Origin: Aromatoleum evansii
GTDB taxonomy: Bacteria > Pseudomonadota > Gammaproteobacteria > Burkholderiales > Rhodocyclaceae
Length of the DNA stretch: 64,000 nt
Direction: 5' to 3'
NCBI RefSeq assembly: GCF_012910805.1
Contig: NZ_WTVK01000006.1
Span: 62,001 to 126,000 of the forward strand
Shown here: positions 29,702-50,031 of the stretch, in pieces
Numbering within the stretch: position 1 is the stretch's first letter
Layout: every line of letters starts with the position of its first letter
Made by a program: the position numbers and the translations under genes
Notes under the pieces: generated by a model
What the model saw: the letters and a program-made list of their open reading frames with translations, nothing else
Database searches by the model: none
Told to the model about the DNA's origin: nothing

Positions 29702-29748
29702 GCTTCTCTCTCCTTCCAGTGCCATCCGTCCTGGGACGTGGCGTGCTC

Positions 29749-30663
29749 TCAGAACGACAGCTCCATGCCGTCGAAGGCGAGCTCGATGCCGTGCGCCGCA
29801 AGTTGCGCGCGCTCGGCACTGTCCTCGTCGAGGATGGGGTTCGTGTTGTTGATGTGGATCAGCACCTTGCGGGTGCTGGCGGGCAGACGGTCGAGCCATT
29901 CGATCATCCCGCCCGGCCCCGACTGCGGCAGGTGCCCCATCGCGCGCGAGGTTTTCTGCGAGGCACCGAGGCGGATCATCTCGTCGTCGGTCCACAAGGT
30001 GCCGTCGACGAGCACGCAGTCGGCCATTTGCATCGCGGCCCACACGTGGGCCTCCATCTCGCCCAGCCCCGGCGCGTAGAACACCCGCCGCCCGCTCCTG
30101 GCATCGACGAGCGTCACGCCGATGTTGTCACCGGGCCGCGGACGGTCGCGGTGCGGCGAATACGGCGGCGCGTTGCTCGTGAGTGGCAACGCCTCGAAGC
30201 CGATGCCGGGCGCGCCGTGCATCGCAAAGGCGCCGAAAAGCGGCACCTCCTGCCAGTCGAGGCCGCAGTAATGCGACAGCACGTTGAAGAGCGGATTGCC
30301 GGCCGAGAGGTCTTCCCGCACCGCGGAGGTGCACCACAGCTGGTGCGCGGCGCGGTGCTCGCGCAGCATCAACAGCCCTGTCGTGTGGTCGATCTGCGCG
30401 TCGATCAGCACGATCGCGCGGATCGCCGTATCGCGCAGCGCACGCCCCGGCTGCAGCGCGGGGAACGCTCGGATCTGCTGCAGGACGTCGGGCGAGGCAT
30501 TGAAGAGCACCCAGTTCTCGTCGTCGCCGCTCACCGCGATGGACGACTGCGTGCGTACACTGGCGCGCACGGTTCCGCGCCGCAGGCCGTCGCAATTGCG
30601 GCAGTTGCAGTTCCATTGCGGGAATCCGCCCCCTGCCGCCGAACCGAGCACCCTGATCTTCAC
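29749..30663 (-). CDS. pqqB: PqqB, metallo-beta-lactamase-fold hydroxylase
   Basis: 304 aa starting at GTG 30663 ([17 protein letters not shown]), chosen because AGGAGGTGA lies six bases upstream; the ATG at 30699 would sit before that site. The [17 protein letters not shown] segment and the N-terminal CNCRNC pair are typical of PqqB, thought to hydroxylate the crosslinked Tyr residue. 59 bp from pqqA and 47 bp from pqqC. Confidence 0.96.
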
Positions 30664-30721
30664 GCTCTCACCTCCTCCTGCGACGGCACGAACCCGCATG
30701 TGCGGGCCATGCCGGGGACGC

Positions 30722-34538: not shown

Positions 34539-34713
34539 CGAATACCTTTGGAAAGCGGCGGGGAAATGAATCGGCGAGGAGCGCAGCGTACAACGGCCGC
34601 GATGCGGAAGAGCGCGGCAGACGCCAGAGACCTTCGGCAAGGGCGAGAGTGTAAGCGTTCGGAGCGCGCACGGCGCCAATAAGTTGCGAGCGCCGCAAGC
34701 GCCCCCTACCCCC

Positions 34714-35892
34714 TCAGCGCGGGGGAAAACGCACGCTGTCCGGCCCGATCCGTGTCATCTCCGGGCAGCCCAGCAGCGCCAACGTTCGATCCATCTCCGA
34801 ACGCAGGATCTCCAGCGCCCGCGCCACGCCCGGCCTGCCCGCCGCCGCGAGGCCGTACAGCGTCGCCCGTCCCGACATCGCCGCATCCGCCCCCAGTGCG
34901 CGCGCCTTGACGAAATCGCTGCCGCGCCGCAGGCCGCTATCGATGACCAGCGTCATCTCCGGCCCCGCCGCCTCGCGGATCTCGGGCAGCACCTCGATCG
35001 GTGCAACGCAGGTGTCGAGCTGGCGGCCACCGTGATTGGTGACGACGAGGCCGTCCACGCCCAGCTGCTTTGCGCGCAGCGCGTCGTCCGGGCGCAGGAT
35101 GCCCTTCACGAGCAGCTTGCGCGGCCACAGCTCGCGCAGCCACGCCACATCGTCCCAGTTCAGCGATGGGTCCATCTGGCTCGACAGGAAGGTCGCCGCG
35201 TTGCGCGCGCTGTCCTGCCCCGGCGGCAGGAAATCGCCGAGATTGCGGAAGCGCGGCATGCCGTGCGGGATCAGCACGTCGAAGAGCCAGCGCCAGCGCG
35301 TCGCGACATCGACCAGGTTGTCGACGTTGAGCTTCATCGGCGCGCGGTAGTTGCGCCGGTCCCACTCGCGATTGCCGAAGGCCGCGACGTCGGTCGTCAG
35401 CACGATCGCCTCGGAGCCCGCAACTTCGGCGCGTTTGACGACGCCGGCGAGGTTCTCGCGGTCCTTGAAGGGATAGATCTGCATCCAGTGGCGCACCCCG
35501 GTTTCGACAATGCGCTCCAGCGACACCGTCGACACCATGCTCTGGCACATCGGGATGCCGGCATCGCGCGCCGCCTCGGCGAGCATCAGGTCCCCCTCGT
35601 GCGACAGCAGGCCGTTGAAGCCGGTCGGCGCGATGATCGCCGGCATCGCGATGCGGCTGCCGAACAGTTCGCAGCCGAGGTCGCGCTCCGACACGTCGAC
35701 CAGCGTGCGCGGCTGGAAGGTCACCGCGTCGAAGCTCGCGCGGTTCTGGCGCAGCGTCACTTCGTCATCCGCGCCGCCGTCGAGGTATTCGAAACAGAAA
35801 TTGGGGATGCGCGCCGCGGCCATCGCACGCAGTTCGACGATATTCTGGGCGCGACGCGGATCGCCGCCCCGGTAGAGTTTGCGCATCGGCAT
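34714..35892 (-). CDS. FMN-dependent alpha-hydroxy-acid oxidase/dehydrogenase
   Basis: 392 aa from the ATG at 35892 (MPMRKLYRGGD); TTG 35907 and ATG 35886 are alternatives. TIM barrel with YLDGGADDE, IIAPTGFNGLLS, the active-site pair in VTNHGGRQLD (His base and Arg) and the phosphate site DSGLRRGSDFVKA. Family members oxidise L-lactate, glycolate or mandelate. Part of the uncharacterised 34.7-43.4 kb catabolic region, but a terminator separates it from the amidohydrolase gene, so it must have its own promoter or depend on read-through. Substrate unknown. Confidence 0.9.
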   Translation of the reverse strand: MPMRKLYRGGDPRRAQNIVELRAMAAARIPNFCFEYLDGGADDEVTLRQNRASFDAVTFQPRTLVDVSERDLGCELFGSRIAMPAIIAPTGFNGLLSHEGDLMLAEAARDAGIPMCQSMVSTVSLERIVETGVRHWMQIYPFKDRENLAGVVKRAEVAGSEAIVLTTDVAAFGNREWDRRNYRAPMKLNVDNLVDVATRWRWLFDVLIPHGMPRFRNLGDFLPPGQDSARNAATFLSSQMDPSLNWDDVAWLRELWPRKLLVKGILRPDDALRAKQLGVDGLVVTNHGGRQLDTCVAPIEVLPEIREAAGPEMTLVIDSGLRRGSDFVKARALGADAAMSGRATLYGLAAAGRPGVARALEILRSEMDRTLALLGCPEMTRIGPDSVRFPPR

Positions 35893-35910
35893 CGCGCCCG
35901 TTCCCAAAGC

Positions 35911-35946
35911 AAAAAAGTCCGCCCCACGATACCGGAGGCGGACTTT
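35911..35946 (-). terminator. Rho-independent terminator of the amidohydrolase gene
   Basis: On the minus strand AAAGTCCGCC, a 13-nt loop, GGCGGACTTT, then further T residues: a textbook intrinsic terminator about 78 bp downstream of the dihydropyrimidinase-like gene and just before the hydroxyacid oxidase start. Confidence 0.85.
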
Positions 35947-36024
35947 GCTTGCCAGTCGTCCATCATGATACGGAACGCTCCACGCGCGGCACGCGACGAT
36001 GAATCGCGCGCGCCGGGCTGCGGT

Positions 36025-37464
36025 TCACCCTTCCCGCACCAGCCTGCGCTCGCTCTTCGGCCGCGCCGGCAGCGGCTTCGAGCATTCGAGGAAGCGTCCA
36101 CGTCCCTTCTGCGCCTGCGCCCTGCCCCCCACCCACACGACCTCGCCGCGCGAGATCGTCACGCCCGGCCAAGCCCTCAGATGCATGCCCTCGTAGGGCG
36201 TGTAATCGACGTTGTGGTGCAGCATCTCGTTGCGGACCGTCACATCGACATCGGTGTCCCAGATCACGATATCCGCATCGCAGCCCACCGCGATACTGCC
36301 CTTGCGCGGATACAGGCCATACAGGCGCGCGACGTTGGTCGAGGTCAGCGCGACGAAGCTCTGCGGATCGATGCGCCCCGTGAGCACGCCCTCCGAGAAC
36401 AGCAGCGCCATGCGCGTCTCCAGCCCCGGGATGCCGTTCGGGATCTGGTCGAAGGACGCATCCTCGCCCGCCGCCTTCTTGCCCTGCGGATCGTCGAAGC
36501 GGAAGGGCGCGTGGTCCGACGAGAAGACCTGGAACACGCCGTTCTCCAGCCCGTCCCACACCACCTTCTGGTTGGCCTTGTCGCGCGGCGGCGGGCTGCA
36601 CACGCACTTCGCGCCGTGCAGGTCGTCGCCCTCGAGGTGCTCGCTGGTCAGGAACAGGTACTGCGGGCAGGTCTCGCCGTACACCTGCAGGCCGCGTCCC
36701 TGCGCCCAGCGGATCTGCTCGACCGCCTCGCGGCCGGACACATGCACGATCAGCACCGGCACGTCGACGAGCTCGGACAGCGAGATCGCCCGATGTGTCG
36801 CCTCGCGCTCGACCAGCATCGGCCGCGATGCCGCGTGAAAGCGCGGCGCGGTGTGGCCGGCCGCGAGCAGCTGCTCGGTGAGCCACGCGATGCAGTCGGT
36901 ATTCTCGGCGTGGATCATCACCATCGCCCCCTCGCGCCGCGCCACCGCGAGCGTCTCGAGGATCTGGCGGTCGTTGAGCTTGAGGTCGTCGTAGGTCATG
37001 TAGATCTTGAACGACGTGTAGCCTTCCTTGATCAGCTCCGGCAGTTCGCGCTGCAACACGTCGGGGGTGGGGTCGCTGACGATCAGGTGGAAGGCGTAGT
37101 CGATCACCGCCTTGTCCCCTGCGCGCGCGTGGTAGTCATCCACCGCCGCACGCAGCGACTGGCCCTTGAACTGGCACGCGAAGGGCAGCACCGTCGTCGT
37201 GCCGCCGCAGGCCGCCGAGAGCGTGCCGCTGTAGAAGTCGTCGGCCATCTTCGTGCCGTCGTTCATCGGCTGGTCGAGGTGGCAGTGCCCGTCGATGCCA
37301 CCCGGCATCACGTAGCGTCCGGCCGCGTCGATTTCCTCGCGACCGGCGGGCAGATTCCTGCCCAGCGCGGCGATCACGCCGTCGCGCACACCGATGTCGC
37401 AATCGAACTCATCCGCCGCCGTCACGACGTGGGCGTTGCGCACCACCAGGTCGAAACTGTCCAT
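36025..37464 (-). CDS. Dihydropyrimidinase/D-hydantoinase-type amidohydrolase
   Basis: 479 aa from the ATG at 37464, with GGAGA seven bases upstream; a 538-aa reading extends over the promoter. All dinuclear-site ligands are visible: His60 and His62 (GHCHLD), carboxylated Lys153 (TSFKIYMTY), His185 (MIHAEN), His241 (IVHVSG) and Asp317 (SSDHAPF). The enzyme opens cyclic amide rings such as dihydrouracil or 5-substituted hydantoins. No carbamoylase or dihydropyrimidine dehydrogenase gene is adjacent, so a standard pyrimidine pathway is not evident. The promoter carries a TTGTCGACAA box shared with the neighbouring unit. Confidence 0.93.
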   Translation of the reverse strand: MDSFDLVVRNAHVVTAADEFDCDIGVRDGVIAALGRNLPAGREEIDAAGRYVMPGGIDGHCHLDQPMNDGTKMADDFYSGTLSAACGGTTTVLPFACQFKGQSLRAAVDDYHARAGDKAVIDYAFHLIVSDPTPDVLQRELPELIKEGYTSFKIYMTYDDLKLNDRQILETLAVARREGAMVMIHAENTDCIAWLTEQLLAAGHTAPRFHAASRPMLVEREATHRAISLSELVDVPVLIVHVSGREAVEQIRWAQGRGLQVYGETCPQYLFLTSEHLEGDDLHGAKCVCSPPPRDKANQKVVWDGLENGVFQVFSSDHAPFRFDDPQGKKAAGEDASFDQIPNGIPGLETRMALLFSEGVLTGRIDPQSFVALTSTNVARLYGLYPRKGSIAVGCDADIVIWDTDVDVTVRNEMLHHNVDYTPYEGMHLRAWPGVTISRGEVVWVGGRAQAQKGRGRFLECSKPLPARPKSERRLVREG

Positions 37465-37551
37465 TGTTGTCTCCATATTTATCGGGGTCTGGCCGGCGAA
37501 TGCGATCTCCACTGTTGGGAACGACACGCCTGTCCAATATAAATCTGTATT

Positions 37552-37561
37552 TTGTCGACAA
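37552..37561. promoter_or_regulatory. FCD-GntR operator, copy 1
   Basis: TTGTCGACAA inside TTTTGTCGACAATT, in the gap between the amidohydrolase (start 37464) and GntR gene 1 (start 37785). It fits the TNGTNNNACNA pattern of FadR-subfamily regulators and differs by one base from the box at 39381. The remaining gap (37465-37784, 320 bp) has no gene. Confidence 0.7.
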
Positions 37562-37784
37562 TTTATCGATGTTTTATTAGACACGCAAGCAAAATTCATC
37601 GACCACGACCGACCCAGACAAGGCAGATCGGACTTGCGCACAAGGAAGCCAGTAGCTCGAACGTCGACTCAATAGCTTCGAAATGCAGACAGGCCGTGGA
37701 CTTTTCTTGCCGCTCCATCCGCGCGAATCGTAGAATTCGGGCTTCGGCCCGGCTTTGCGGGCCCCTCAGGCGCAGGACGACAGG

Positions 37785-38540
37785 ATGGAAAAAAAGACGG
37801 TCAAACAGCGCGGCAGCCGCGCATCGTCGCCCGCCCCCTTGCACGATGAACGGCCGGCGAACGAGGGCGAAGGCGGTGCGTCGGACCAGGAGATCTACGA
37901 GCGCATCATCACGTCGATCATGGAGCACCGCCTGCCGCCGGGCACCAAGCTCGGCGAGGACAAGCTCGCGAAGATCTTCGGCGCGAGCCGCGCACGCGTG
38001 CGCCAGGTGCTCGCGCGCCTCGCGCTGGAGCGCGTGGTCGTGCTGCACCCGAACCGCGGGGCCTTCGTCGCCGAGCCCACCGTGGAGGAAGCGCGCGAGG
38101 TCTTCGAAGTCCGTCGCCCGCTCGAAGCGCTGGTCGTACACCGCATCGTCGCGAAGAAGGACCCGGCGATCGTCGCCCGCCTGCGCGCCCACGTCGCAGC
38201 CGAGGAAGCCGCCCGCGCCGCGCGCGACCGCCGCGCCATCATCCGCCTCTCGGGCGAATACCACGTGCTGCTCGCGGAGCTCTCCGGCAGCACCCTGGCC
38301 GCGCGCCTGATGCATGAACTGGCGTCCCTCACCTGCCTCATCATCTTCCTCTACGACGCCCCTTCCGTGCCCGCCTGCCGCGACCAGGAGCATTCCGAGA
38401 TCACGCAGGCGCTCGCCGACGGCGACGAGGCCGCCGCGATCCGCCTGATGACCGAGCATCTCGAGCACGTCGAGGCCTGCCTCGACCTTTCGCGCGGCCG
38501 CCCCGAGGAACTCGACCTGGAAGCCGCGCTGGCCGGCTGA
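37785..38540 (+). CDS. GntR family regulator, FCD subfamily, copy 1
   Basis: 251 aa from the ATG at 37785. Winged helix about residues 40-105 (IYERIITSIMEHRLPPGTKLGEDKLAKIFGASRARVRQVLARL), followed by the all-helical FCD effector domain with HIS/ASP ligands in GEYHVLLAELSG and EHSEITQAL. Closely similar to the convergent GntR gene 2: both contain PNRGAFVAEPTVEEAREVFE. Divergent from the amidohydrolase gene, which it likely controls. Confidence 0.93.
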   Translation: MEKKTVKQRGSRASSPAPLHDERPANEGEGGASDQEIYERIITSIMEHRLPPGTKLGEDKLAKIFGASRARVRQVLARLALERVVVLHPNRGAFVAEPTVEEAREVFEVRRPLEALVVHRIVAKKDPAIVARLRAHVAAEEAARAARDRRAIIRLSGEYHVLLAELSGSTLAARLMHELASLTCLIIFLYDAPSVPACRDQEHSEITQALADGDEAAAIRLMTEHLEHVEACLDLSRGRPEELDLEAALAG

Positions 38541-38553
38541 GTTCGCTTCCCCG

Positions 38554-39330
38554 TCAGGAGAAGATCCGCTCCAGGTCGTCGTCCTCCTGCGCGGCGAGGC
38601 TGATGTCGAGCGACTGCTCGACGTGGTCGAGGTGATGCAGCATCAGCGCGGCGGCGGTCTCCCCGTCGCGTTTTGCAAAGGCCTCCACCAGGCGACTGTG
38701 CTCGTCTTCCGGACACGCCCGCCCCACGGGCGAGTCGTACAGGATGATGATCAGGCAGGTCAGCAGCGTCAGCTCGCGCATCTGCCGTGCGAGTATCGCG
38801 TTGCCGGCCATCTCCGCGATCTCGAGGTGGAACTCGCCCGACAGCCGGATCACCTGCTGGCGGTCGCGCTGCGCACGCGCCTTCTCCTCGGCAAGGACCA
38901 GCTCGCGCAGCCGCGCGAGCTGCGCGGGCGTCGCCGACAAGGCCAGCTTGCGCGCCAGCGCCGGCTCGATCAGCCGCCGCGCCTCGAACACCTCGCGCGC
39001 CTCCTCCACCGTGGGCTCGGCGACGAAGGCGCCGCGGTTCGGCACCAGTGTCACGACCATCTCGTGCGACAGGCGCGCCAGCACCTGCCGGATCATCGCC
39101 CGGCTCGCGCCGAACACCGCCGCCAACCGCTCCTCGACGAGCTTGCGGCCCGGCGCGAGGCGATGCTCGATGATCGCCGCAAGGATGCGGCGATAGATCG
39201 CCTCCGCGTCCGCACCCGCTGCTGCCTTCGACCGGCGCTCCTGCCCGAGACGCACCACCTTCGCGTCGCGGACGTCCTGCGGGCGCTCTCGCGCGCCCGA
39301 ACCATTCTGAACCATCTGTCGAGCCCCCAT
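38554..39330 (-). CDS. GntR family regulator, FCD subfamily, copy 2
   Basis: 258 aa from the ATG at 39330; ATG 39315 is an alternative. Same architecture as copy 1: winged helix (IYRRILAAIIEHRLAPGRKLVEERLAAVFGASRAMIRQVLARL) and FCD domain (GEFHLEIAEMAGN, EHSRLVEAF). Its stop is 13 bp from that of copy 1; tail-to-tail paralogues probably arose by inverted duplication. Divergent from the MFS carrier operon, whose promoter holds the second operator copy. Confidence 0.93.
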   Translation of the reverse strand: MGARQMVQNGSGARERPQDVRDAKVVRLGQERRSKAAAGADAEAIYRRILAAIIEHRLAPGRKLVEERLAAVFGASRAMIRQVLARLSHEMVVTLVPNRGAFVAEPTVEEAREVFEARRLIEPALARKLALSATPAQLARLRELVLAEEKARAQRDRQQVIRLSGEFHLEIAEMAGNAILARQMRELTLLTCLIIILYDSPVGRACPEDEHSRLVEAFAKRDGETAAALMLHHLDHVEQSLDISLAAQEDDDLERIFS

Positions 39331-39380
39331 TCCGCCCTCTCATCGGGTGCAAATTCATTGTTAGCGAACTATAAACTTTT

Positions 39381-39390
39381 TTGTCTACAA
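39381..39390. promoter_or_regulatory. FCD-GntR operator, copy 2
   Basis: TTGTCTACAA inside TTTTGTCTACAATT, in the 308-bp gap between GntR gene 2 and the MFS gene (39331-39638). One base different from the copy at 37552, extending to 14 matching positions otherwise. Confidence 0.7.
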
Positions 39391-39638
39391 TTCGTTGACT
39401 TCATGTTGGCAGCAGCCCTATAGTTCATCGCACGACGGTAACGAGTCATTCCCGAACGGCGATCTATCCGGTCGACACTTCGGGCCTGAACCGGCAACCA
39501 GAAAAAGAAATGGTGCGAGGCCGCGATCCGGCACTCGCTCCCCGTAGGCGGCATCAAGCCCTTTGGAGGCGCCGGCACGGTCACATGGTCGTGGCGGGAT
39601 AGCCAAAACTCATCCAAGCTGTGGAAAGGAGACACCAC

Positions 39639-40949
39639 ATGAAAGCTGAAATCGCCCTCGACCGGGCGGCAGCCGTACCGGAAACGCAGACGAAGGTCCG
39701 CTGGCGGATCTTCCTGATGATGCTGTTCCTCATCTCGATCAACTACATCGACCGGGCCTCGCTGTCGGTCGCGATGCCGATGATCGCCGCGGAATTCGAC
39801 ATCGGGCCCGCGACGCAGGGCCTGCTGCTGAGCTCCTTCTTCTGGACCTACGCCTTCATGCAGATCCCGGGCGGCATGCTCGCGGACAAGTACGGCCCGC
39901 GCCACGTCATTGCGGGCGCCACCCTCGGCTGGGGCTTCTTCCAGGCGATCGCGGGGGTCTGTACCGGCTGGGTCAGCCTGCTGATCACGCGCCTGGGCCT
40001 CGGCGCCGCCGAAGCGCCGATCTACCCTGCGGGCGGCAAGCTCAACGCCATCTGGATGACGCAGAACGAACGCGGTCGCGGCGCGACCCTGCTCGACGGC
40101 GGCGCCCCGCTGGGCGCGGCGCTCGGCGCGATCCTGATCTCGGGCCTGATCGCCGTGATGGGATCGTGGCGCGCAGCCTTCGTGATCGCCGGCGTCGGCA
40201 CCGTGATCGCCGGTTTTTGGGCCTGGTCCTACATCCGCAACCATCCGCGCGAGCATCCGGGGGTCAATGACGCCGAGGCCGACTACATCGAGGAAGCGCA
40301 CGCGAAGGAACTCGCGGCATCGCCGAAGGTGACCAGCGGCAAGATCATGGAATTCTTCCGCTACCGCTCGGTGTGGGGCATGTTCTTCGGCTGGATGTGC
40401 TTCAACGCGCTGTTCTACGGCCTGCTGACCTGGATGCCCAACTACCTGTCCAAGCAGCACGGCTTCGACATCAAGCAGATGGGCGGCGCGGTGTTCATCA
40501 TGTTCTTCGCCGGCTTCGTCGGCGAGCTGATCGGCGGCTGGATCGCCGACAAGTGGAAGGAAAAGGGTGCCTCGCAGGGCAAGGTGCTGCGCACGCTGTT
40601 CGGGATCGCATCGATCATCGCCACCGTGTCGATCTACAGCGTCGCGAAGATCACCGATCCCGTCACCGTCGTCGTGATGCTCTCGGTCACGCTGTTCTTC
40701 CTGCGCTGGTGCGGCCTGTTCTGGTGCGTCCCGTCCATCCTCGGCACGCGCAACCGCGTCGGCTTCCTCGGCGGCGTGATGAACCTGGGCGGCAACTGCG
40801 CGGGCATCGGCGTGCCCATCCTCGTCGGCCTCATCGTCCAGGCGACCGGCTCGTACTACATGGCGCTGATGCTGTTCGCCGCCGCCGGCGCCGGCCTGTT
40901 CATCTGCTCGACGATGCTGATCGACTACGACAAAAAGATCCCGGTCTGA
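39639..40949 (+). CDS. MFS transporter, anion:cation symporter type
   Basis: 436 aa from the ATG at 39639, with GGAAAGGAGA upstream. About 12 membrane helices; signature NYIDRASLSVAMPMIAAEF in helix 1, GGMLADKYGPRHV between helices 2 and 3, and GGWIADKWKEKG in the second half. The ACS family imports organic anions such as glucarate, galactonate, phthalate and tartronate analogues by proton symport. First gene of a rightward operon with two racemase-fold enzymes and an FAH hydrolase. Confidence 0.93.
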   Translation: MKAEIALDRAAAVPETQTKVRWRIFLMMLFLISINYIDRASLSVAMPMIAAEFDIGPATQGLLLSSFFWTYAFMQIPGGMLADKYGPRHVIAGATLGWGFFQAIAGVCTGWVSLLITRLGLGAAEAPIYPAGGKLNAIWMTQNERGRGATLLDGGAPLGAALGAILISGLIAVMGSWRAAFVIAGVGTVIAGFWAWSYIRNHPREHPGVNDAEADYIEEAHAKELAASPKVTSGKIMEFFRYRSVWGMFFGWMCFNALFYGLLTWMPNYLSKQHGFDIKQMGGAVFIMFFAGFVGELIGGWIADKWKEKGASQGKVLRTLFGIASIIATVSIYSVAKITDPVTVVVMLSVTLFFLRWCGLFWCVPSILGTRNRVGFLGGVMNLGGNCAGIGVPILVGLIVQATGSYYMALMLFAAAGAGLFICSTMLIDYDKKIPV

Positions 40950-41024
40950 TCTCCCCCCGGGGCGCCGCGGTCATCCCTGCCGCGGTGCCCCACCCTCCCC
41001 GACCGGACGCCAACGAGAATTCCC

Positions 41025-41753
41025 ATGAGCAAACGCATTCGCCTGGGCGTGCTGACGCCCTCCTCCAACACCTCCCTCGAACCGCTGACCAGCGCCATCG
41101 TCGCCGAAGTGCCCGGCGTATCGGCCCACTTCTCGCGTTTCACCGTCACCGAAATCTCGCTCAAGGACCAGGCCCTCGGCCAGTTCGACGACACGAAGAT
41201 CCTCGAAGCGGCAAAACTGCTCGCCGACGCCCATGTCGACTCGATCGGCTGGAGCGGCACCTCCTCCGGCTGGCTCGGTTTCGAGCGCGACGTGCAATTG
41301 TGCCGCCGCATCACCGAAGTGACCGGCATCCCCGCGACGACCTCGGTGCTCGCGCTGAACGAGATCCTCGCCAAGACCGGCACGAAGAAGCTCGGCCTCG
41401 CGACCCCCTACGTGCCCGATGTGCAGGCGCGCATCGTCGCCAACTACGCGACGCTCGGCATAGAGGTGCCGTCCGAGCAGCACCTCGGCATCAGCGTCAA
41501 TTTCGACTTCGCCGAAGTCGCCGAGGACACGCTGCGCACGATGGTGCGCGAAGTCGCCAAATCCCGCCCCGAAGCGATCACGACCTTCTGCACCAACCTG
41601 CGCGCCGCCCAGCTCGCCGACGAGCTCGAAGCCGAAACCGGCATCCCGCTCTACGACACGGTCTCGACCGTCGTGTGGAAGCAGTTGCGCATGGCCGGCA
41701 TCGACACGCGCACGATCAAGGGCTGGGGTCGCCTGTTCCGCGAAGTGGCCTAA
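41025..41753 (+). CDS. Arylmalonate decarboxylase/maleate isomerase-like enzyme
   Basis: 242 aa of the Asp/Glu racemase superfamily. In maleate isomerases two cysteines act; here the first position is Gly78 in WSGTSSGW while the second is Cys189 (TTFCTNLRA), and Tyr129 lies in ATPYVPDV. G-T-S plus a single late cysteine and this tyrosine is the arrangement of arylmalonate decarboxylase (Gly74-Thr75-Ser76, Tyr126, Cys188). Thus a decarboxylase of a disubstituted malonate or an isomerase is possible. ATG at 41025; 75 bp after the MFS gene. Confidence 0.87.
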   Translation: MSKRIRLGVLTPSSNTSLEPLTSAIVAEVPGVSAHFSRFTVTEISLKDQALGQFDDTKILEAAKLLADAHVDSIGWSGTSSGWLGFERDVQLCRRITEVTGIPATTSVLALNEILAKTGTKKLGLATPYVPDVQARIVANYATLGIEVPSEQHLGISVNFDFAEVAEDTLRTMVREVAKSRPEAITTFCTNLRAAQLADELEAETGIPLYDTVSTVVWKQLRMAGIDTRTIKGWGRLFREVA

Positions 41754-41775
41754 AGTGAAATCGGATGAATCGAAA

Positions 41776-42519
41776 ATGAAAATCCTGCTGCTGAATCCCA
41801 ACACCTCGCAGAGCGTCACCGACCGCATCGCCAACGCGGCGAAGGGGGTGGCCGGCGCGCGCACCGAACTCGTCACCGCGACCGCTCCGCGCGGCGTGCC
41901 CTACATCGCGACCCGCGCCGAAGCCGTGATCGGCGGCGCCGTCGCGCTCGAGATGCTGGCCGAGATGCACACCGGCGTCGACGCGGCGGTGATCGCCGCC
42001 TTCGGCGACCCCGGCCTCGGCGGCGCACGCGAACTCTTCCCGATCCCGGTGATCGGACTGGCCGAAGCGGGCATGCTGACCGCGTGCATGCTCGGCAAGC
42101 GCTTCGCGATCGTGACCTTCTCGCAATCGCTGGAGCCCTGGTACCACGAATGCGTTGCGTGGCACGGCCTGCGCGAGCGCTGCGCCGGCGTGCGCGCACT
42201 GGGCGGCAGTTTCCGCTCGATCTCGGACGTACAGGACGAAAAGGAAGCGCTGCTGGTCGAACTCGCGCAGCAGGCGGTGAACGAGGACGGCGCCGACGTG
42301 GTCGTGCTCGCCGGTGCGCCGCTCGCGGGGCTCGCCCGCCGCGTACGCGACCGCATCCCGGTGCCGGTCGTCGACTGCGTCGAGGCTGCGGTCAAGCAGG
42401 CGGAAACGCTGGTCGCGCTGAATCCGCGCAAGGCCGTTCAGGGCACCTTCGCACGTCCCGGCGCGAAGCCCTGCGTCGGCATCGCCGAGCCGCTAGCGCG
42501 CTGGATCAACCATGAGTGA
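41776..42519 (+). CDS. Asp/Glu/hydantoin racemase-family protein lacking catalytic cysteines
   Basis: 247 aa from the ATG at 41776 (MKILLLNPNTSQSVTDRI); GTG 41755 adds seven residues. The fold is that of hydantoin racemase, but the first cysteine position (CFGDPG) is Ala75 in AAFGDPGLGG and the second (LGC) is Gly180 in VLAGAPLAGLA. Without the two-cysteine proton relay, racemase activity of the usual kind is unlikely. Remaining Cys104, Cys126 and Cys136 do not align with them. 22 bp after the preceding gene. Confidence 0.88.
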   Translation: MKILLLNPNTSQSVTDRIANAAKGVAGARTELVTATAPRGVPYIATRAEAVIGGAVALEMLAEMHTGVDAAVIAAFGDPGLGGARELFPIPVIGLAEAGMLTACMLGKRFAIVTFSQSLEPWYHECVAWHGLRERCAGVRALGGSFRSISDVQDEKEALLVELAQQAVNEDGADVVVLAGAPLAGLARRVRDRIPVPVVDCVEAAVKQAETLVALNPRKAVQGTFARPGAKPCVGIAEPLARWINHE

Positions 42520-42564
42520 GGCCCGTCGCGCGGACGCGCGCAGCCTCCTCGCCCTTCAAGGAGA

Positions 42565-43413
42565 ATGGCTGTGAAACTCGTTCGCTTCGGAGCTCCCGGC
42601 ACGGAGCTCCCCGGTCTGATCGACGCCGAAGGCAGGATCCGCGACCTGTCGGGCGTGCTGCCCGACATCAACGGCGCGGCCCTGTCGCCGTCCAGCCTCG
42701 CGCGGCTGCGCGGACTCGATCCGCAAAGCCTTCCCGTCGTTCCGGCCGGGACCCGACTCGGGGCGCCGCTCACGGGCATCGGCAAGATCGTGTGCATCGG
42801 CCTGAACTATGCCGATCACGCGCGCGAAGCCAACCTGCCGATCCCGCAGGAACCGATCATGTTCATGAAGGCGCAGACCGCGATCTGCGGCCCGAACGAC
42901 GCGATCGTCCTGCCACCCGGCTCGGAGAAGACCGACTGGGAACTCGAACTGGTGATCGCGATCGGCACGACGGCGCGACGCGTGGCGGTCGGCGACGCTC
43001 TCGGCCACGTCGCCGGCTACCTGGCCGGGCTGGACATGTCCGAGCGCTATTGGCAGCTCGAGCGCGGCGGGCAATGGACCAAGGGCAAGAGCTTCGACAC
43101 CTTCGCACCCATCGGCCCGTGGCTCGCAACCGCCGACGAGCTCCGCAGCCCCGGCGAGCTGGCGATGCAGCTCGCCGTCAACGGCGAGCGCATGCAGGAC
43201 AGCAACACCGCCAACATGATCTTCAGCCCCGCGCAGATCATCAGCTACGTCAGCGGCGTGATGACGCTGGAGCCGGGCGACCTCATCTTCACCGGCACCC
43301 CCGCTGGTGTCGGCATGGGCATGACGCCGCCGCGCTACCTGCGTGCGGGCGATCGCGTCGACGCGTCGATAGCAGGGCTGGGCGACCAGCAGCACGCAGT
43401 CGTCGCCGACTGA
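42565..43413 (+). CDS. FAH-family hydrolase (2-hydroxyhepta-dienedioate isomerase/decarboxylase-like)
   Basis: 282 aa. N-terminal strand-rich segment VKLVRFGAPGTELPGLID, then the FAH core: CIGLNYADHAREANLPIPQEPIMFMKA, metal-site acids in KTDWELELVIAIG, TKGKSFDTFAPIGPWL and GDLIFTGTPAGVGMG. The group includes 2,4-diketo-L-rhamnonate hydrolases, ureidoglycolate lyase-like proteins and acylpyruvases. Last gene of the MFS operon, 45 bp after the racemase-like gene. Substrate unknown. Confidence 0.9.
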   Translation: MAVKLVRFGAPGTELPGLIDAEGRIRDLSGVLPDINGAALSPSSLARLRGLDPQSLPVVPAGTRLGAPLTGIGKIVCIGLNYADHAREANLPIPQEPIMFMKAQTAICGPNDAIVLPPGSEKTDWELELVIAIGTTARRVAVGDALGHVAGYLAGLDMSERYWQLERGGQWTKGKSFDTFAPIGPWLATADELRSPGELAMQLAVNGERMQDSNTANMIFSPAQIISYVSGVMTLEPGDLIFTGTPAGVGMGMTPPRYLRAGDRVDASIAGLGDQQHAVVAD

Positions 43414-43463
43414 GCGTACCGAGCATCAATCGCCACGCCGTGAGCGCGGCGGCGATTTTCCCT

Positions 43464-43538
43464 GTGGGAGCGGCTTCAGCCGCGAAGCAGCGTTTCCGCC
43501 GGAAGTGAGGCCCCATTCGCGGCTGAAGCCGCTCCCAC
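43464..43538. repeat. REPIN-like pair of inverted palindromic repeats
   Basis: Two perfect 23-bp copies in opposite orientation (43464-43486 and 43516-43538), 29 bp apart. Each begins or ends GTGGGAG and has the internal palindrome GCGGCT-TC-AGCCGC. The layout is that of the REP doublets (REPINs) of pseudomonads and relatives. Lies in the 194-bp gap between convergent FAH and korB genes, where it may also stop transcription. Confidence 0.8.
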
Positions 43539-43607
43539 GGACGGGGCCTCGCAGGAAGTTACTCCCGCACGGCCGCTACTGCGGCCTTATGCCACCGGTG
43601 ACGCCGC

Positions 43608-44663
43608 TCAGCGCAGCATCGCGTTGAGCGCCTCGAGCGCCTTGCTGCCCGGGCACAGGTAGGCATCGCCCAACTGGTTCAGCGGCTTCTCCACCGTATT
43701 GAGGTGGGTGTGCATGTCCTGCCCGCTGCTGTCGACGTACAGCAGTCCGGTCACGATCTCGCCCAGCGCCTGACGCTCCTGCAGGTGGTTCATCGCACCG
43801 ATGCGGTCCGAAGGGTCGTAGTCGACGCCCACCTTGCGCAGGTGCAGGATCGACCCGTCGTGCTGCACGACGCGGCGCAGGCTGCCCGGCGGGTAGGAGG
43901 CCTCGATCTGCGCCTTGGGCAGGATCACGTCGATGCGGTTCACCGCCGCGTTGTGCTCGCGCACGTAGTCGTAGCTCTTCGTCGACCCGCTGTGGTTGTT
44001 GAAGGTCACGCAGGGGCTGATGACATCGATGAAGGCGGGCCCGCCGTGGCGCAGCGCGCCCTTAATGAGCGGCACGAGCTGTTCCTTGTCGCCCGAGAAG
44101 CTGCGGGCGACATAGGTGGCGCCCAGTTGCAGCGCGAGCGCGGCGAGATCGATCGGGTTGTCGCTGTTGATGACGCCCTTCTTGCTCTTCGAGCCCTTGT
44201 CCGCGGTCGCCGAGAACTGCCCCTTGGTGAGGCCGTACACGCCGTTGTTCTCGACGATGTAGGTCATGTTCACGCCGCGGCGCATCGCGTGGGCGAACTG
44301 GCCGATGCCGATCGAGGCCGAGTCGCCGTCGCCGGAAACTCCCAGGTACAGCAGGTTGCGGTTGGCGAGCGCCGCCCCGGTGAGCACCGAGGGCATGCGC
44401 CCATGCACCGAGTTGAAGCCGTGCGAGTTGCCGAGGAAGTAGTCCGGCGTCTTCGACGAGCAACCAATGCCGGAGAGCTTGGCGACCTTGTGCGGTTCGA
44501 TGTCGAGGTCGAAGCAGGCCTGCACGACCGCGGCGCTGATCGAGTCGTGGCCGCAGCCGGCGCACAGCGTCGAGATCGCGCCCTCGTAGTCGCGGCGGGT
44601 GTAGCCGAGCGCGTTGCGCGGCGCGTCGGCCGCGAGGAGCTTGGGTTTGGCGAGATAGGTCAT
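43608..44663 (-). CDS. korB: 2-Oxoacid:acceptor oxidoreductase, beta subunit (2-oxoglutarate type)
   Basis: 351 aa from the ATG at 44663, overlapping the korA stop by 4 bp. Thiamine-diphosphate motif GDGDSASIGIGQFAHAM to NNGVYGLTKGQ, and cluster cysteines in CAGCGHD, GIGCSS and a later SPCVTFNNHSG. Together with KorA it oxidises 2-oxoglutarate to succinyl-CoA and CO2 with reduction of ferredoxin; in Azoarcus evansii and Thauera this supplies electrons for benzoyl-CoA reductase. Confidence 0.94.
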   Translation of the reverse strand: MTYLAKPKLLAADAPRNALGYTRRDYEGAISTLCAGCGHDSISAAVVQACFDLDIEPHKVAKLSGIGCSSKTPDYFLGNSHGFNSVHGRMPSVLTGAALANRNLLYLGVSGDGDSASIGIGQFAHAMRRGVNMTYIVENNGVYGLTKGQFSATADKGSKSKKGVINSDNPIDLAALALQLGATYVARSFSGDKEQLVPLIKGALRHGGPAFIDVISPCVTFNNHSGSTKSYDYVREHNAAVNRIDVILPKAQIEASYPPGSLRRVVQHDGSILHLRKVGVDYDPSDRIGAMNHLQERQALGEIVTGLLYVDSSGQDMHTHLNTVEKPLNQLGDAYLCPGSKALEALNAMLR

Positions 44664-46516
44664 GAGGCCACCTTGCGCTGGGGTTGTCCGATGGGGCTCA
44701 CCTTGCGGTCGTTCAGGGCGTCGGCGATCTTGCCGGCGATGAAGCGCGCCGTGATCGGCGAACCGTCGTAGTGCAGCACGCGCACGAGCTTCTTCGGATC
44801 GATCTCGCCTTCGTTGACCAGCAGCGTGCGCAGCTGCGCGCTCTCGTTCTGCTCGACGACAAACACCGCGTCGCGCTCGGCGATGAACTGCATCACCGCG
44901 TCGCTGAAGGGGAAGCCGCGTACACGCAGCGTATCGACGTGGATGCCGTCGGCCGCGAGCAACGCGCTGGCCTCGGCCATCGCGGGCGCCGTGGAGCCGT
45001 AGTAGATGACGCCGACGTGTGTGGGCTGCTCCGCCTTCGTCAGGATCGGCGCCGGCACGAGATCCTTGGCTGTGTTGAACTTCCGGCGCAGGCGCTCCAT
45101 GTTGTACACGTAGTCGGTGCCGACCTCGCTGTACTTCGCATACGGGTTGCGCGTGGTGCCGCGCGTGAAGTACGCGCCCCGAGTCGGATGGGTGCCCGGG
45201 ATGGTGCGGTACGGAATGCCGTCGCCGTCGACATCGAGGTAGCGGCCGAAGTCCTTGCCGGCCTCGAGCTCGTCGTAGGTCATGAGCTTGCCGCGGTCGT
45301 AGCGCCGGCTGTCGTCCCAGTCGAACGGAGCACAGAGCTGATCGTTCATGCCGATATCCAGATCCGACATCACGAACACCGGCGTCTGCAGCCGCTCGGC
45401 CAGATCGAAGGCCTGCGCGGTGAGGCTGAAGCACTCGTAGGCGTCCTGCGGGAACAGCAGCACATGGCGCGTGTCGCCGTGCGAGGCGTAGGCGCAATTG
45501 AGCAGGTCCGACTGCTGTGTGCGCGTGGGCATGCCCGTCGAGGGGCTGCCGCGCTGCACGTCGACGATCACCGCGGGAATCTCGGCGAAGTACGCCAGAC
45601 CGAAGAATTCCTGCATCAGCGAGATGCCCGGCCCCGAGGTCGCGGTAAAGGCGCGCGCGCCGTTCCAGCCGGCGCCGATGACCATGCCGATGGAGGCGAG
45701 CTCGTCCTCGGCCTGCACGATGGCGTAGCGTGCTCGGCCGTTGTCGGGATCGGTGCGGAACTTGCGGCAGTAGCTCGAGAAGGCTTCGATGACCGAGGTC
45801 GAGGGCGTGATCGGATACCAGCCCGCGACGGTGGCGCCGCCGAACACGGCACCGAGGCCGCAGGCGCTGTTGCCGTCGATCATGATGCGGTCGCCCACCG
45901 CGTCGGCGCGCTTCACCCGGAGCCCGATGGGGCACGGCAGGTGCTGCCGCGCGTAGTCGTAACCCAGGCGCAACGCATTGACGTTGGCCTTGATGAGCTG
46001 GTCCTTGCCGCGGTAACGGTCGACGATGAGCTGCTCAGCCGCGGCGAACTCCATGTCGAGCAGCGCAATCAGGGCACCGACGTACATGATGTTCTTGAAC
46101 AGCTGGCGCTGGCGCGCGTCCTCGTATTCCGCATTGCACATCGCGGTGAGCGGGATGCCCAGCACGGTGATGTCCTCACGGAACTTCGACGGCGGGAGCG
46201 GCTTGGTCGAGTCGTAGAAGAGATAGCCGCCGCGGTCGATCGCGGCAAGGTCGCGGTCCCAGGTCTGCGGGTTCATCGCGACCATCATGTCGCAACCGCC
46301 GCGCGCACCGAGCCAGCCGGCTTCCGAGACGCGCACCTCGTACCACGTGGGCAGGCCCTGGATGTTAGACGGAAAGATGTTGCGCGGGGCCACCGGCACG
46401 CCCATGCGAATGATCGCGCGCGCGAAGAGTTCGTTGGCCGAGGCGGAGCCCGAGCCGTTGACGTTCGCGAACTTGATCACGAAGTCGTTGGTGTGTTGAA
46501 TCGCTGGGGTAGTCAT
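44660..46516 (-). CDS. korA: 2-Oxoacid:acceptor oxidoreductase, fused gamma-alpha subunit
   Basis: 618 aa. N-terminal gamma domain about residues 12-200 (FANVNGSGSASANELFARAI), then the pyrimidine-binding alpha domain from about 215 (CGLGAVFGGATVAGWYPITPSTS, TSGPGISLMQEFFGLAYFAEIPAVIVDVQRGSPSTG), and domain II to the end. The gamma-alpha fusion is the usual form in this family. Starts 2 bp after the korC stop region, forming a tight operon korC-korA-korB. Confidence 0.94.
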   Translation of the reverse strand: MTTPAIQHTNDFVIKFANVNGSGSASANELFARAIIRMGVPVAPRNIFPSNIQGLPTWYEVRVSEAGWLGARGGCDMMVAMNPQTWDRDLAAIDRGGYLFYDSTKPLPPSKFREDITVLGIPLTAMCNAEYEDARQRQLFKNIMYVGALIALLDMEFAAAEQLIVDRYRGKDQLIKANVNALRLGYDYARQHLPCPIGLRVKRADAVGDRIMIDGNSACGLGAVFGGATVAGWYPITPSTSVIEAFSSYCRKFRTDPDNGRARYAIVQAEDELASIGMVIGAGWNGARAFTATSGPGISLMQEFFGLAYFAEIPAVIVDVQRGSPSTGMPTRTQQSDLLNCAYASHGDTRHVLLFPQDAYECFSLTAQAFDLAERLQTPVFVMSDLDIGMNDQLCAPFDWDDSRRYDRGKLMTYDELEAGKDFGRYLDVDGDGIPYRTIPGTHPTRGAYFTRGTTRNPYAKYSEVGTDYVYNMERLRRKFNTAKDLVPAPILTKAEQPTHVGVIYYGSTAPAMAEASALLAADGIHVDTLRVRGFPFSDAVMQFIAERDAVFVVEQNESAQLRTLLVNEGEIDPKKLVRVLHYDGSPITARFIAGKIADALNDRKVSPIGQPQRKVAS

Positions 46517-46517
46517 C

Positions 46518-48296
46518 TCAAACCTCCGCGCCGGCTTGCGCGATGTTCACCTCGAATTTCTGCATGTCCCAGGCGCCCGTGGGACAACGTTCGGCACACA
46601 TGCCGCAGTGCAGGCAGACGTTCTCGTCCTTGACCATCACGCGCCCGGTCTTGAGCCCCTCGGCGAGGTACAGCGCCTGCTCCCGCTCGCGCGACGGCGC
46701 CTTGAGGCGGCCGCGCAGCTCGTCTTCCTCGCCGTTCTGCGTGAAGGTGATGCATTCGGTGGGACAGATATCGACACAGGCGTCGCATTCGATGCACAGC
46801 TTGGGCTTGAACACGGTGGCGACGTCGCAGTTGAGGCAGCGGGCCGTCTCCGCACAGGCGAGCTTGAAGTCGTAGCCGAGTTCGAACTCCGACTTGATGT
46901 CCTTCAATGCCTCCTCGATCGACCTCACCGGCACCTTGCGGCGCGCGTCTTCCGACACCTGGTTGTCGTAGCTCCACTCGTGGATGCCCATCTTCTGGCT
47001 CACGAGGTTCATCGTCGCCGGCGGCCGCTGCGTCAGCGGCAGCTTGCGGCAGAAGAGATCGATCGAGATCGCGGCCTCGTGGCCCTGCGCGACCGCGGTG
47101 ATGATGTTCTTCGGCCCGAGCGCCGCATCGCCGCCGAAGAACACGCGCGGCAGCGTCGATTGCAGCGTCTGCGGATTCAGCACCGGCAGACCCCAGCGGT
47201 CGAAGTCGAGGCCGATGTCGCGCTCGATCCACGGGAAGGCGTTTTCCTGGCCGATGGCGATGAGGACGTCGTCGCATTCCATATGCACGTCCGGCTCGCC
47301 GGTCGGCACCAGCGAACGACGGCCCTGGTCGTCGTATTCGGCGCGCACCTTCTCGAACAGCACGCCGGTGAGGCGCCCGTTGCCATGCGTGAAGGCCTTC
47401 TGCACGAGGTAGTTGTGGATGGGGATGCCTTCGTGCAGCGCGTCCTCCTTCTCCCACGGCGAGGCCTTCATCTCCTCGAAGCCGCTGCGCACCACCACCC
47501 GCACGTCCTCGCCACCGAGGCGGCGCGCCGAGCGGCAACAGTCCATCGCGGTGTTGCCACCGCCGAGCACGATCACGCGCTTGCCGATCGAGGTGACGTG
47601 GCCGAAGGCGACGTTCGCAAGCCAGTCGATGCCGACGTGGATGTGCGCCGCGGCCTGGTTGCGTCCCGGCAGGTCGGCGTCGCGCCCACGAGGGGCGCCG
47701 GTGCCTACGAAAACGGCGTCCCAGTCCTGCGCCAGCACTTCGCGCAGGCTGCCGATCCAGTGATTGCGGCGCACTTCGACGCCCAGCGCCTCGATGTAGC
47801 CGCACTCCTCGTCGATGACGCTGTCGGGCAGGCGGAACTTCGGGATCTGGCTGCGCATCATGCCGCCGGGCGACGAGCCGCTGTCGAACACCGTGACCTG
47901 GTAGCCCTGCACCGCCAGGTCGCGCGCCACCGTCAGCGAGGCCGGCCCGCCGCCGATGCACGCGATGCGCTTGCCATTCTTCTTCTCGGGCGGCCGCGGC
48001 AGGCGGTCGTGGATGTCATCCTTGAAGTCGGCCGCGACACGCTTGAGGCGACAGATCGCGACCGGCTCCTTGTCGACGCGCCCGCGCCGACAGGCCGGCT
48101 CGCACGGACGGTCGCACACCCGTCCGAGAATCCCCGGAAAGACGTTGGAGCGCCAGTTGATCATGTACGCAGTGGAGAAATCACCCGCTGCGATCTGCCG
48201 GATGTATTCAGGCACGGGCGTGTGGGCCGGACAGGCCCACTGACAGTCGACGACCTTGTGCAGGTAATCGGGGTTGCTGATGTCGGTCGGTTTCAA
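46518..48296 (-). CDS. korC: NAD(P)H:acceptor oxidoreductase subunit of the 2-oxoglutarate complex, FAD and Fe-S
   Basis: 592 aa starting at a TTG (48296) with AGGAAGGA eight bases upstream; the frame stays open to 48374 but no ATG there has a site. N-terminal cysteine-rich domain (VDCQWACPAH, CDRPCEPAC) and FAD/NAD(P) folds (GGGPASL, GGGNTAMD) as in the glutamate synthase small subunit, then a C-terminal two-cluster ferredoxin: CIECDACVDICP and CLHCGMCAERCP. It passes electrons between KorAB and NADP/ferredoxin, as in the 2-oxoglutarate:NADP oxidoreductase of Azoarcus evansii. Confidence 0.92.
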   Translation of the reverse strand: MKPTDISNPDYLHKVVDCQWACPAHTPVPEYIRQIAAGDFSTAYMINWRSNVFPGILGRVCDRPCEPACRRGRVDKEPVAICRLKRVAADFKDDIHDRLPRPPEKKNGKRIACIGGGPASLTVARDLAVQGYQVTVFDSGSSPGGMMRSQIPKFRLPDSVIDEECGYIEALGVEVRRNHWIGSLREVLAQDWDAVFVGTGAPRGRDADLPGRNQAAAHIHVGIDWLANVAFGHVTSIGKRVIVLGGGNTAMDCCRSARRLGGEDVRVVVRSGFEEMKASPWEKEDALHEGIPIHNYLVQKAFTHGNGRLTGVLFEKVRAEYDDQGRRSLVPTGEPDVHMECDDVLIAIGQENAFPWIERDIGLDFDRWGLPVLNPQTLQSTLPRVFFGGDAALGPKNIITAVAQGHEAAISIDLFCRKLPLTQRPPATMNLVSQKMGIHEWSYDNQVSEDARRKVPVRSIEEALKDIKSEFELGYDFKLACAETARCLNCDVATVFKPKLCIECDACVDICPTECITFTQNGEEDELRGRLKAPSREREQALYLAEGLKTGRVMVKDENVCLHCGMCAERCPTGAWDMQKFEVNIAQAGAEV

Positions 48297-48350
48297 GTGC
48301 GTCCTTCCTGTCTCGGGAAAAGCGTGCGTATGAACGCGCCAATCAATACA

Positions 48351-48402
48351 TGCATCATTGTGCACAAACTGCACTCAAATGCACGCTGCACTGCAACATG
48401 CA
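48351..48402. promoter_or_regulatory. Seven-fold TGCA cluster upstream of korCAB (BzdR/BoxR-type operator)
   Basis: TGCA begins at 48351, 48361, 48370, 48380, 48387, 48392 and 48399; two copies form larger palindromes (CATGCAT, TTGTGCACAA at 48358-48367). BzdR of Azoarcus sp. CIB is known to bind TGCA direct repeats that form part of longer palindromes. Located 55-106 bp upstream of the korC start. The rest of the 304-bp gap 48297-48600 holds no gene. Confidence 0.7.
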
Positions 48403-48600
48403 TCATCCGATTCCATGCGCAATGAGCAATCGTACATTTTCCGGACAATTCCCGTATCACACCTGCGTCTCTTGTCGCATTTCCGGACAAGTTTTGCGGT
48501 GGCCACGGCCCAGGGCCGCGGACTTCAGGAACGGTTCACCTTCGCTTTCGCAGAATGTGTCCCATGCCACCCCGGCATGCATCGGAAACAGGAGACCGCC

Positions 48601-48882: not shown

Positions 48883-48915
48883 GCCCGTAAAGGGCCGGTG
48901 GTGCGGACGAATGCC

Positions 48916-49989: not shown

Positions 49990-50031
49990 GCTGTTTCCTC
50001 CCTGTCGTTCTTGTCCGGCGCAGCGGGCAAA

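Follow-up and report, generated by a model that had tools for sequence, protein, structure and literature searches.

Hydantoin utilization (hyu) clusters, which we take to consist of a D-hydantoinase, a hydantoin racemase, an N-carbamoylase and a transporter, are the described systems closest to the locus reported here, and they share with it the opening of a cyclic ureide ring. A second point of comparison is the arylmalonate decarboxylase (AMDase) group of enzymes, for which we know of no natural role. Published criteria for AMDase (PMC4996985, Table 4) treat a glycine at position 74 instead of the second cysteine as AMDase-specific and Cys188 as the proton donor; section 13 of the same article reports MR/MLE, TTT, TRAP and ABC genes as AMDase neighbors, with no hydantoinase in that section. 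We analyzed a 64,000-nucleotide stretch of the Aromatoleum evansii genome (contig NZ_WTVK01000006.1; hereafter the window), which belongs to a 5.94-Mb assembly of 330 contigs (G000). It contains a cyclic amidohydrolase (HydA), a one-cysteine relative of AMDase (AMD), a racemase-like protein (RAC), a FAH-fold hydrolase (FAH), an MFS transporter (MFS) and two GntR regulators (GntR1 and GntR2). We see an even chance that window positions 35,975-43,604 form a mobile catabolic module, jointly regulated and serving a single anionic cyclic ureide or imide, with ring opening by HydA and cofactor-free decarboxylation by AMD. The module resembles hydantoin utilization but fails its defining features, and its parts belong to known superfamilies. 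No description of an AMD-HydA-RAC operon was found in the titles and abstract starts of open-license PubMed Central articles, among the matches listed.

AMD and HydA form a conserved pair, often joined by RAC. We sampled 399 genomes evenly across the order (thresholds: AMD, E≤1e-60; HydA, E≤1e-120; RAC-like, E≤1e-25). AMD occurred in 13 genomes, HydA in 29 and RAC-like proteins in 40. Twelve of the 13 AMD genomes also had HydA (hypergeometric 2e-14) and 10 had a RAC-like protein (8e-9), and AMD was present in all eight genomes whose listed HydA reached at least 66% identity (9e-14); the three values are uncorrected for kinship and genome size. Among 64 AMD loci, HydA was present at 59% or more in 18, and the complete set of HydA, MFS, AMD, RAC and FAH was found only in L027, L029, L030 and L031 (L028 is cut by a contig end). 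The nearest named relatives of AMD are those of Aromatoleum tolulyticum, A. toluolicum, Azoarcus sp. Aa7 and A. toluclasticum.

The association extends to plasmids. A collection of 72,556 plasmid records contained RAC in 20, AMD in 46 and HydA in 124 (60 of the 124 among the matches listed). AMD lay within 10 kb of RAC in 18 of the 20 RAC records; in the other two (Allorhizobium and Paraburkholderia PREW-6R, the second AMD place of the latter being left out of this comparison) HydA was within 6 kb. Gene order varied: Klebsiella plasmids carry AMD-hydA-FAH with RAC 6 kb away, Arthrobacter sp. ZXY-2 has an operon ordered MFS-GntR-RAC-hydA-AMD, and Paraburkholderia largidicola has a short operon, MFS-AMD-hydA-RAC, with a GntR gene. 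Further annotated examples came from Defluviimonas, Methylobacterium nodulans, Salipiger and Diaphorobacter. AMD and hydA occurred without RAC in Azospirillum argentinense and Paracoccus, and AMD occurred without an annotated hydA on the stretch in B. glumae, Caballeronia NK8, Leptolyngbya, S. meliloti HM006, Rhizobium johnstonii, Ensifer and A. ramasamyi. Linkage of AMD with HydA, and of RAC with AMD, exceeds chance. The co-conservation on which the original prediction had staked its gene set was thus borne out for AMD with HydA and, less strictly, for RAC; FAH recurs without being constant, and the flavin mononucleotide (FMN) dehydrogenase of that set, FMNdh, drops out.

The boundaries of the module were drawn by comparison within the genus (17 genomes, that of the window included). 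AMD was found at 93% identity or more in eight of these genomes and at 65% in one further genome, KorA in 16; 11 had an FMNdh of at least 80%. Six loci include both flanks (the window, L027, L029, L030, L194 and L195), and in all of them FMNdh borders the module on one side and KorB on the other. Of the genomes in the genus that lack the module, two without AMD, G002 and G013, were compared for empty sites, and G004, G006, G007, G008 and G011 were left out. In G002 (L197), window positions 34,638-35,974 and 43,605-50,686 align as blocks just 47 bases apart, so that everything from HydA to FAH is missing and FMNdh adjoins KorB; the order is the same in G013 (L198). Conversely, HydA-GntR1-GntR2-MFS-AMD-RAC-FAH lies at another place in G014 (L196), with no FMNdh or Kor gene on the 20 kb read and with FMNdh and KorCAB of that genome located away from the module, and HydA to FAH is likewise present without FMNdh or Kor in a metagenome-assembled genome (L031).

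These comparisons show that seven genes travel together within the genus and define a transferable unit of HydA, GntR1, GntR2, MFS, AMD, RAC and FAH. By the evidence of the empty sites, FMNdh is a neighbor through insertion and no member, and the earlier assignment of this FMN 2-hydroxyacid oxidase to a pathway step is contradicted; it should be left out of the gene set taken into experiments. KorCAB was rejected as a member too, KorA being present in 16 of the 17 genomes, module-free ones included. GntR1 was found in all seven module copies compared and also in G015 (L199), a remnant in which HydA, MFS and AMD are lost and what is left is GntR1, a fragment of GntR2, FAH and the end of RAC; GntR2 was not found in L029 and L030. 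A script search for a target-site duplication at the module ends found no shared word of 9-14 bases between the two junction stretches.

AMD belongs to the group that includes EutA, maleate isomerase and AMDase, and its residues separate it from each of them. In profile comparisons it scored 76 bits against a maleate isomerase structure and 71 bits against an AMDase structure. It shares with maleate isomerase (MaiA/NicE) the PSSN and PY motifs and Asn159: in the alignment with structure 2xec, its N15, Y129 and N159 fall on PSSN, PY and DN, positions that presumably bind carboxylate. In a numbering of the catalytic cysteines that is our assumption, Gly78 aligns on the first of them, which we take to be the nucleophile, and Cys189 falls at or adjoining the second. 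EutA of ectoine use offers a CT.LRA motif, also seen in the EutA-like protein of G009, yet AMD reached only 75 bits against the EutA model TIGR02990 (cut-off 318), and the module has no eut genes. The missing first cysteine led us to reject both maleate isomerase and EutA as the identity of AMD. The G009 protein itself (235 bits against the same cut-off) has both cysteines and adjoins a EutB above cut-off; together with a TRAP permease the two make L018 a probable ectoine-use locus.

Against the AMDase criteria of PMC4996985 (Table 4), AMD matches Gly74, Thr75, Cys188 and Tyr126, the last aligned with Y129. It also has the Gly74-Thr75-Ser76 and single-Cys188 pattern, with glycine replacing the first cysteine and one C-terminal cysteine left. 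It differs from AMDase (PF17645/NF052327) in scoring 68 bits against NF052327 (cut-off 225; five other AMD-family members scored 55-97), in reading T190 for Gly189 and TTFCTNL for ILLSCGGL, and in a pocket region that does not match the hydrophobic pocket. The signature is nevertheless stable in the family: PSSNT, G78-T79 and C189-T190-N191 are invariant across 16 aligned AMD sequences and S80 is present in 14 of them, and all but one of the 17 plasmid loci examined, drawn from the 46 records, retain the glycine and single cysteine. Since glycine occupies the position of the first catalytic cysteine, a maleate-isomerase mechanism is argued against, and the earlier expectation of an intermediate "decarboxylated or isomerised" narrows to its first half. 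We propose that AMD is a cofactor-free decarboxylase, because it combines the AMDase-like glycine/cysteine pattern with loss of the first cysteine that a two-base isomerase or racemase needs. The module ties a sister subfamily of AMDase, with the same glycine/cysteine signature, to a ring-opening enzyme in short operons of Aromatoleum, Paraburkholderia, Cupriavidus, Klebsiella plasmids and Arthrobacter, so that the question of the natural role of AMDase-type enzymes becomes testable with a few purified enzymes.

HydA scored above cut-off against NF009941 (PRK13404; 814 bits, cut-off 647) and the D-hydantoinase model TIGR02033 (566 bits, cut-off 393), and at 417 bits against the dihydropyrimidinase structure 3sfw (PDB), with which its HxH, Lys, His, His and Asp positions align; these we take to be the metal ligands. 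Ring opening is assigned to HydA because of its family. It is the single hydantoinase above cut-off in the genome, in which no TIGR01879 carbamoylase was found above cut-off; the three CN_hydrolase (PF00795) matches all lie on other contigs, and the module holds no N-carbamoyl amino acid hydrolase. On these grounds we set aside a uracil route, as the original prediction had done, although dihydropyrimidine dehydrogenase was not searched for. Likewise supported is the broader reading that these genes are an uncharacterized catabolic set acting on a cyclic amide or ureide, whose ring a hydantoinase opens.

RAC has no NCBIfam match and is recognized only by the broad PF01177 model. It is homologous to allantoin racemase (KpAllR, structure 3qvj; 123 bits) over nearly its full length, unlike in that Cys79 and Cys184 are replaced by Ala and Gly. 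The roles of these two cysteines in a two-cysteine mechanism are described in PMC12661438. Because both catalytic cysteines are missing, RAC should not be a two-base racemase, and we discarded the possibility that it is an ordinary hydantoin racemase. The description "cysteine-less" given to it earlier is right for both catalytic positions and wrong elsewhere, as RAC has other cysteines. The main type of RAC reads AAFGDPG(L/V/I/M) and (L/I/V/M)(A/G)GAPL(A/S)G, versus ACFGDPGL and LGCAGM in the racemases. The forms AAFGDPGL and LAGAPLAG recur in linked RAC copies, and all eight plasmid copies of the main type examined (of 20 records), including those of Arthrobacter and two near-identical Klebsiella copies, lack the cysteines. 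A second linked type, with VSLD(S/T)AL and LAGA(A/V), is also without them (Pseudacidovorax loci, L078 and G692).

Among the AMD genomes of the order sample, the RAC-like protein is of the cysteine-less main type in G000, G443, G573, G619 and G655 and of the second type in G450 and G692; the best copy of G481 has one cysteine, that of G590 has both, and the copy of G475 was left out. PF01177-like ORFs (open reading frames) near AMD in L149 and L153 have no first-position cysteine and carry one a single place before the second. Two-cysteine proteins in the same sample were found at L107-L109, L111, L112, L115, L116 and L118-L120. A class-wide search for RAC at E≤1e-40 returned only its own genome (1 of 274). 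By these alignments AMD and RAC fall into sharply defined, distinctive and probably new subfamilies; in the case of RAC they point to a subfamily of racemase-fold proteins without catalytic cysteines that are labeled as racemase family in the plasmid records examined.

The remaining genes supply plausible uptake, a last step and regulation. MFS is nearest to TIGR00893 (247 bits, cut-off 395), presumably of anion:cation symporter type, and is likely to take up an organic anion; it lies beside AMD in L034-L038 and L166. FAH is homologous over its full length to 2,4-didehydro-3-deoxy-L-rhamnonate hydrolase (NF053535), but it falls below cut-off (381 bits against 500) and no other module gene indicates rhamnonate. 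In L196 and L031 it travels as part of the module, a close homologue (59%) stands beside AMD-MFS-GntR genes in L146, and FAH-fold members of the MhpD/hydratase type occur in L138, L140, L158/L174, L159 and L168. MFS, AMD, RAC and FAH look like a single transcript because the gaps between their ORFs are short (75 bases between MFS and AMD, 1 between AMD and RAC, or 22 with the later RAC start, and 45 between RAC and FAH).

Both divergent promoter regions have a common operator-like site by comparison, TTTTGTCGACAATTT in the HydA/GntR1 region and TTTTGTCTACAATTC in the GntR2/MFS region. Allowing up to two mismatches, the 64-kb window holds these two sites and no others (shuffle mean 0.02). The HydA/GntR1 region contains an exact TTGTCGACAA in L027, L029, L030 and L031; the GntR2/MFS region does so in L027, L030 and L031, and differs by one base in L029. 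Across the 64 AMD loci (1.22 Mb) there are 28 sites of the form TTGTNNACAA, and 12 gene-start windows (310 bases; AMD, HydA or MFS) contain one, against 0.73 expected from density. These 12 windows correspond to 11 distinct sites, as the site of L086 counts for two genes, and seven of the 11 belong to four close relatives of the window. The form of the palindrome presumably fits operators of FCD-type GntR proteins.

In the proposed pathway the MFS carrier would import the anion and HydA would cleave the ring amide by hydrolysis. With a dicarboxylate site like that of maleate isomerase and the C-terminal cysteine only, AMD would then decarboxylate without a cofactor, the enediolate being protonated from Cys189, as AMDase does. 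RAC would bind a related intermediate, serving probably as lyase, hydrolase or tautomerase in certain versions of the pathway, and FAH would complete the conversion to a central metabolite. GntR1 and GntR2, both FCD-type, probably respond to the substrate or to an intermediate and act on the predicted TTGTCGACAA operators. A more specific version, possible but doubtful, is that AMD is a physiological instance of the chemistry of AMDase: with one cysteine and no cofactor, it would decarboxylate a polar malonate released when HydA opens a ring with a carbonyl next to a carboxyl. Chemistry and gene content would make a 5-carboxy-hydantoin such as alloxanate (5-hydroxyhydantoin-5-carboxylate) a fitting substrate; HydA would yield ureidohydroxymalonate, AMD would convert this to ureidoglycolate, and the cysteine-less RAC, or FAH, would release urea and glyoxylate. 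RAC would in that event have a racemase fold that the loss of both cysteines had made into a lyase or hydrolase.

Several observations weigh against a dedicated module with AMD as its decarboxylase. The Gly189/ILLSCGGL and pocket motifs of AMDase are not conserved in AMD, so the predicted decarboxylation rests on the glycine/cysteine pattern. Twelve order genomes contain both AMD and HydA, but the two lie within 10 kb of each other in just six (G000, G404, G475, G590, G655 and G692); in G573 and G619 AMD is apart from HydA while HydA and RAC stay together, and in G409, G443, G450 and G481 a more distant HydA, of the 54-58% type, is on another contig than AMD. One of nine close HydA copies contains an in-frame TGA (G590). 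Ordinary racemases, including the two-cysteine copy in the AMD genome G590 (L107), are part of the RAC count at E≤1e-25, and several plasmid records are near-identical strains. RAC was on 18 of the 35 fetched stretches holding both HydA and AMD and absent from 17, some of them cut by contig ends and with a partial RAC filtered out in L069, so not every version needs RAC. In 23 of the 64 loci a relative of AMD is accompanied not by HydA but by an NCS2 permease and a deaminase-like enzyme. Once (Ensifer L172, the exception among the plasmid loci) a relative with neither glycine nor cysteine at the aligned positions lies beside sugar-acid-like genes, without HydA. Finally, a cysteine-less RAC is found without AMD in eight genomes of one genus.

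In seven of these order genomes (G048, G367, G410, G518, G548, G578 and G606, all without AMD at E≤1e-60) the cysteine-less RAC, with AAFGDPGV and VGGGPLAG, faces a second PF01177-like protein that has glycine at the first position and cysteine at the second (AGFGNVGI, LACAGLCG). HydA at about 57% adjoins the facing pair in G048, G548, G578 and G606, and in G662 HydA is also beside a cysteine-less RAC. Facing pairs of a cysteine-less and a one-C-terminal-cysteine racemase-fold protein, without AMD, are those of L150, L155 and L097-L103, in several genomes beside a hydantoinase; another one-cysteine protein therefore occurs in place of AMD.

Other pathways could be built from the same genes. 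HydA might open a maleimide-type ring as an imidase, either RAC or an amidase might remove the amide, and AMD might turn a maleate-type product into fumarate. Amidase genes do recur beside AMD and HydA, as do PuuE-like enzymes of the polysaccharide-deacetylase family, and the AMD profile matches maleate isomerase as well as it matches AMDase with the PSSN, PY and N positions kept; the invariant Gly78, however, removes the presumed nucleophile of the isomerase, and an amidase is missing from both the window module and the L166 operon, which leaves this scheme possible but doubtful. We consider it unlikely that the window holds the later half of a pterin-, purine- or aminopyrimidine-type route, in which a deaminase would take an amino group off an N-heterocycle, hydrolases would open the ring, and AMD would act on a shared late intermediate. 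Such a route would account for the AMD genes that stand beside a 2paj-like amidohydrolase (E 1.1e-134), a carrier resembling xanthine permeases and, in all but one of 23 loci of this kind (Burkholderia, Paraburkholderia and Caballeronia), a UbiD-family decarboxylase, and for those beside other amidohydrolases together with HydA, but the window module has no deaminase and its carrier is of the organic-anion type (nearest model, below cut-off).

Ordinary hydantoin utilization, with a racemase and a D-hydantoinase yielding N-carbamoyl amino acids for a carbamoylase elsewhere in the genome, is very unlikely. HydA is indeed above the D-hydantoinase cut-off, the best solved relatives of RAC are hydantoin and allantoin racemases, and the three CN_hydrolase-family proteins could be candidates. 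Like hyu clusters, the module has a hydantoinase near a racemase-fold protein and a carrier; unlike them, it has a RAC without either catalytic cysteine, no clustered carbamoylase, and AMD, and TIGR01879 gave nothing above cut-off. What looks like the classical hydantoin type was found separately, at L157, where two proteins come after HydA (56%), one of the nitrilase superfamily (128 bits to its best model, N-carbamoylputrescine amidase, a score below cut-off) and one racemase-like with two cysteines. Least credible is a single pathway of all eight genes ending in 2-hydroxyacid oxidation: FMNdh is on the HydA strand, 117-132 bases downstream depending on the start, and stands beside the module in the six Aromatoleum-type loci given above, but it adjoins KorB in the module-free G002 and G013 and is absent beside the module in G014 and L031.

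The 23 loci without HydA make up a second AMD-bearing cluster (L039, L040, L042-L058, L060, L064, L068 and L085; L171 of Caballeronia NK8 is an annotated example). Two LysR families, CobW, the NCS2 permease and the 2paj-like deaminase family are each present in 23 loci, UbiD and Amidohydro_2 each in 22, and UbiX was detected in 11. We take 2paj to be isoxanthopterin deaminase, and the cluster is possibly an undescribed pteridine or nucleobase route; AMD chemistry therefore serves more than one route.

All eight genes of the original prediction are present as ORFs where it had placed them; they are collected with the two palindromes in Table 1.

Table 1. Genes and operator-like sites of the HydA-FAH region (window coordinates)
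Feature	Description	Position	Strand	Basis
FMNdh	FMN dehydrogenase	34714-35907	-	PF01070
HydA	Dihydropyrimidinase/D-hydantoinase family cyclic amidohydrolase; core, predicted ring opening	36025-37476 (start later than that of the longest ORF)	-	NF009941 and TIGR02033 above cut-off
Palindrome 1	Operator-like palindrome TTTTGTCGACAATTT, HydA/GntR1 divergent region	37550-37564		Exact match
GntR1	FCD-type GntR regulator, divergent to HydA	37785-38540 (alternative ORF start 37755)	+	PF00392 and PF07729
GntR2	Second FCD-type GntR regulator, divergent to MFS	38554-39330	-	PF00392 and PF07729
Palindrome 2	Second operator-like palindrome TTTTGTCTACAATTC, GntR2/MFS divergent region	39379-39393		2 mismatches versus first site
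MFS	MFS transporter	39639-40949 (alternative ORF start 39621)	+	PF07690
AMD	One-cysteine member of the EutA/maleate isomerase/arylmalonate decarboxylase group; core	41025-41753	+	PF17645, 81 bits
RAC	Hydantoin/allantoin-racemase-like protein; frequent partner	41776-42519 (alternative ORF start 41755)	+	PF01177, 170 bits
FAH	FAH-fold hydrolase; recurring partner	42565-43413	+	PF01557

Around the module, a long inverted repeat, GTGGGAGCGGCTTCAGCCGCGAA ... TTCGCGGCTGAAGCCGCTCCCAC, occupies window positions 43464-43538 between the convergent FAH and KorB genes and looks like a REP-type element or a two-way terminator. KorB, KorA and a FAD/4Fe-4S glutamate-synthase-like subunit follow at 43608-48374 as a 2-oxoacid:acceptor oxidoreductase set. 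On the other side, pqqC and pqqB lie at 28922-30699 on the minus strand (TIGR02111 and TIGR02108 above cut-off). In Klebsiella (L158 and L174) the module is carried on IncFIB/MOBH plasmids with RND efflux genes nearby, and L158 has a silE prediction about 8 kb past the module.

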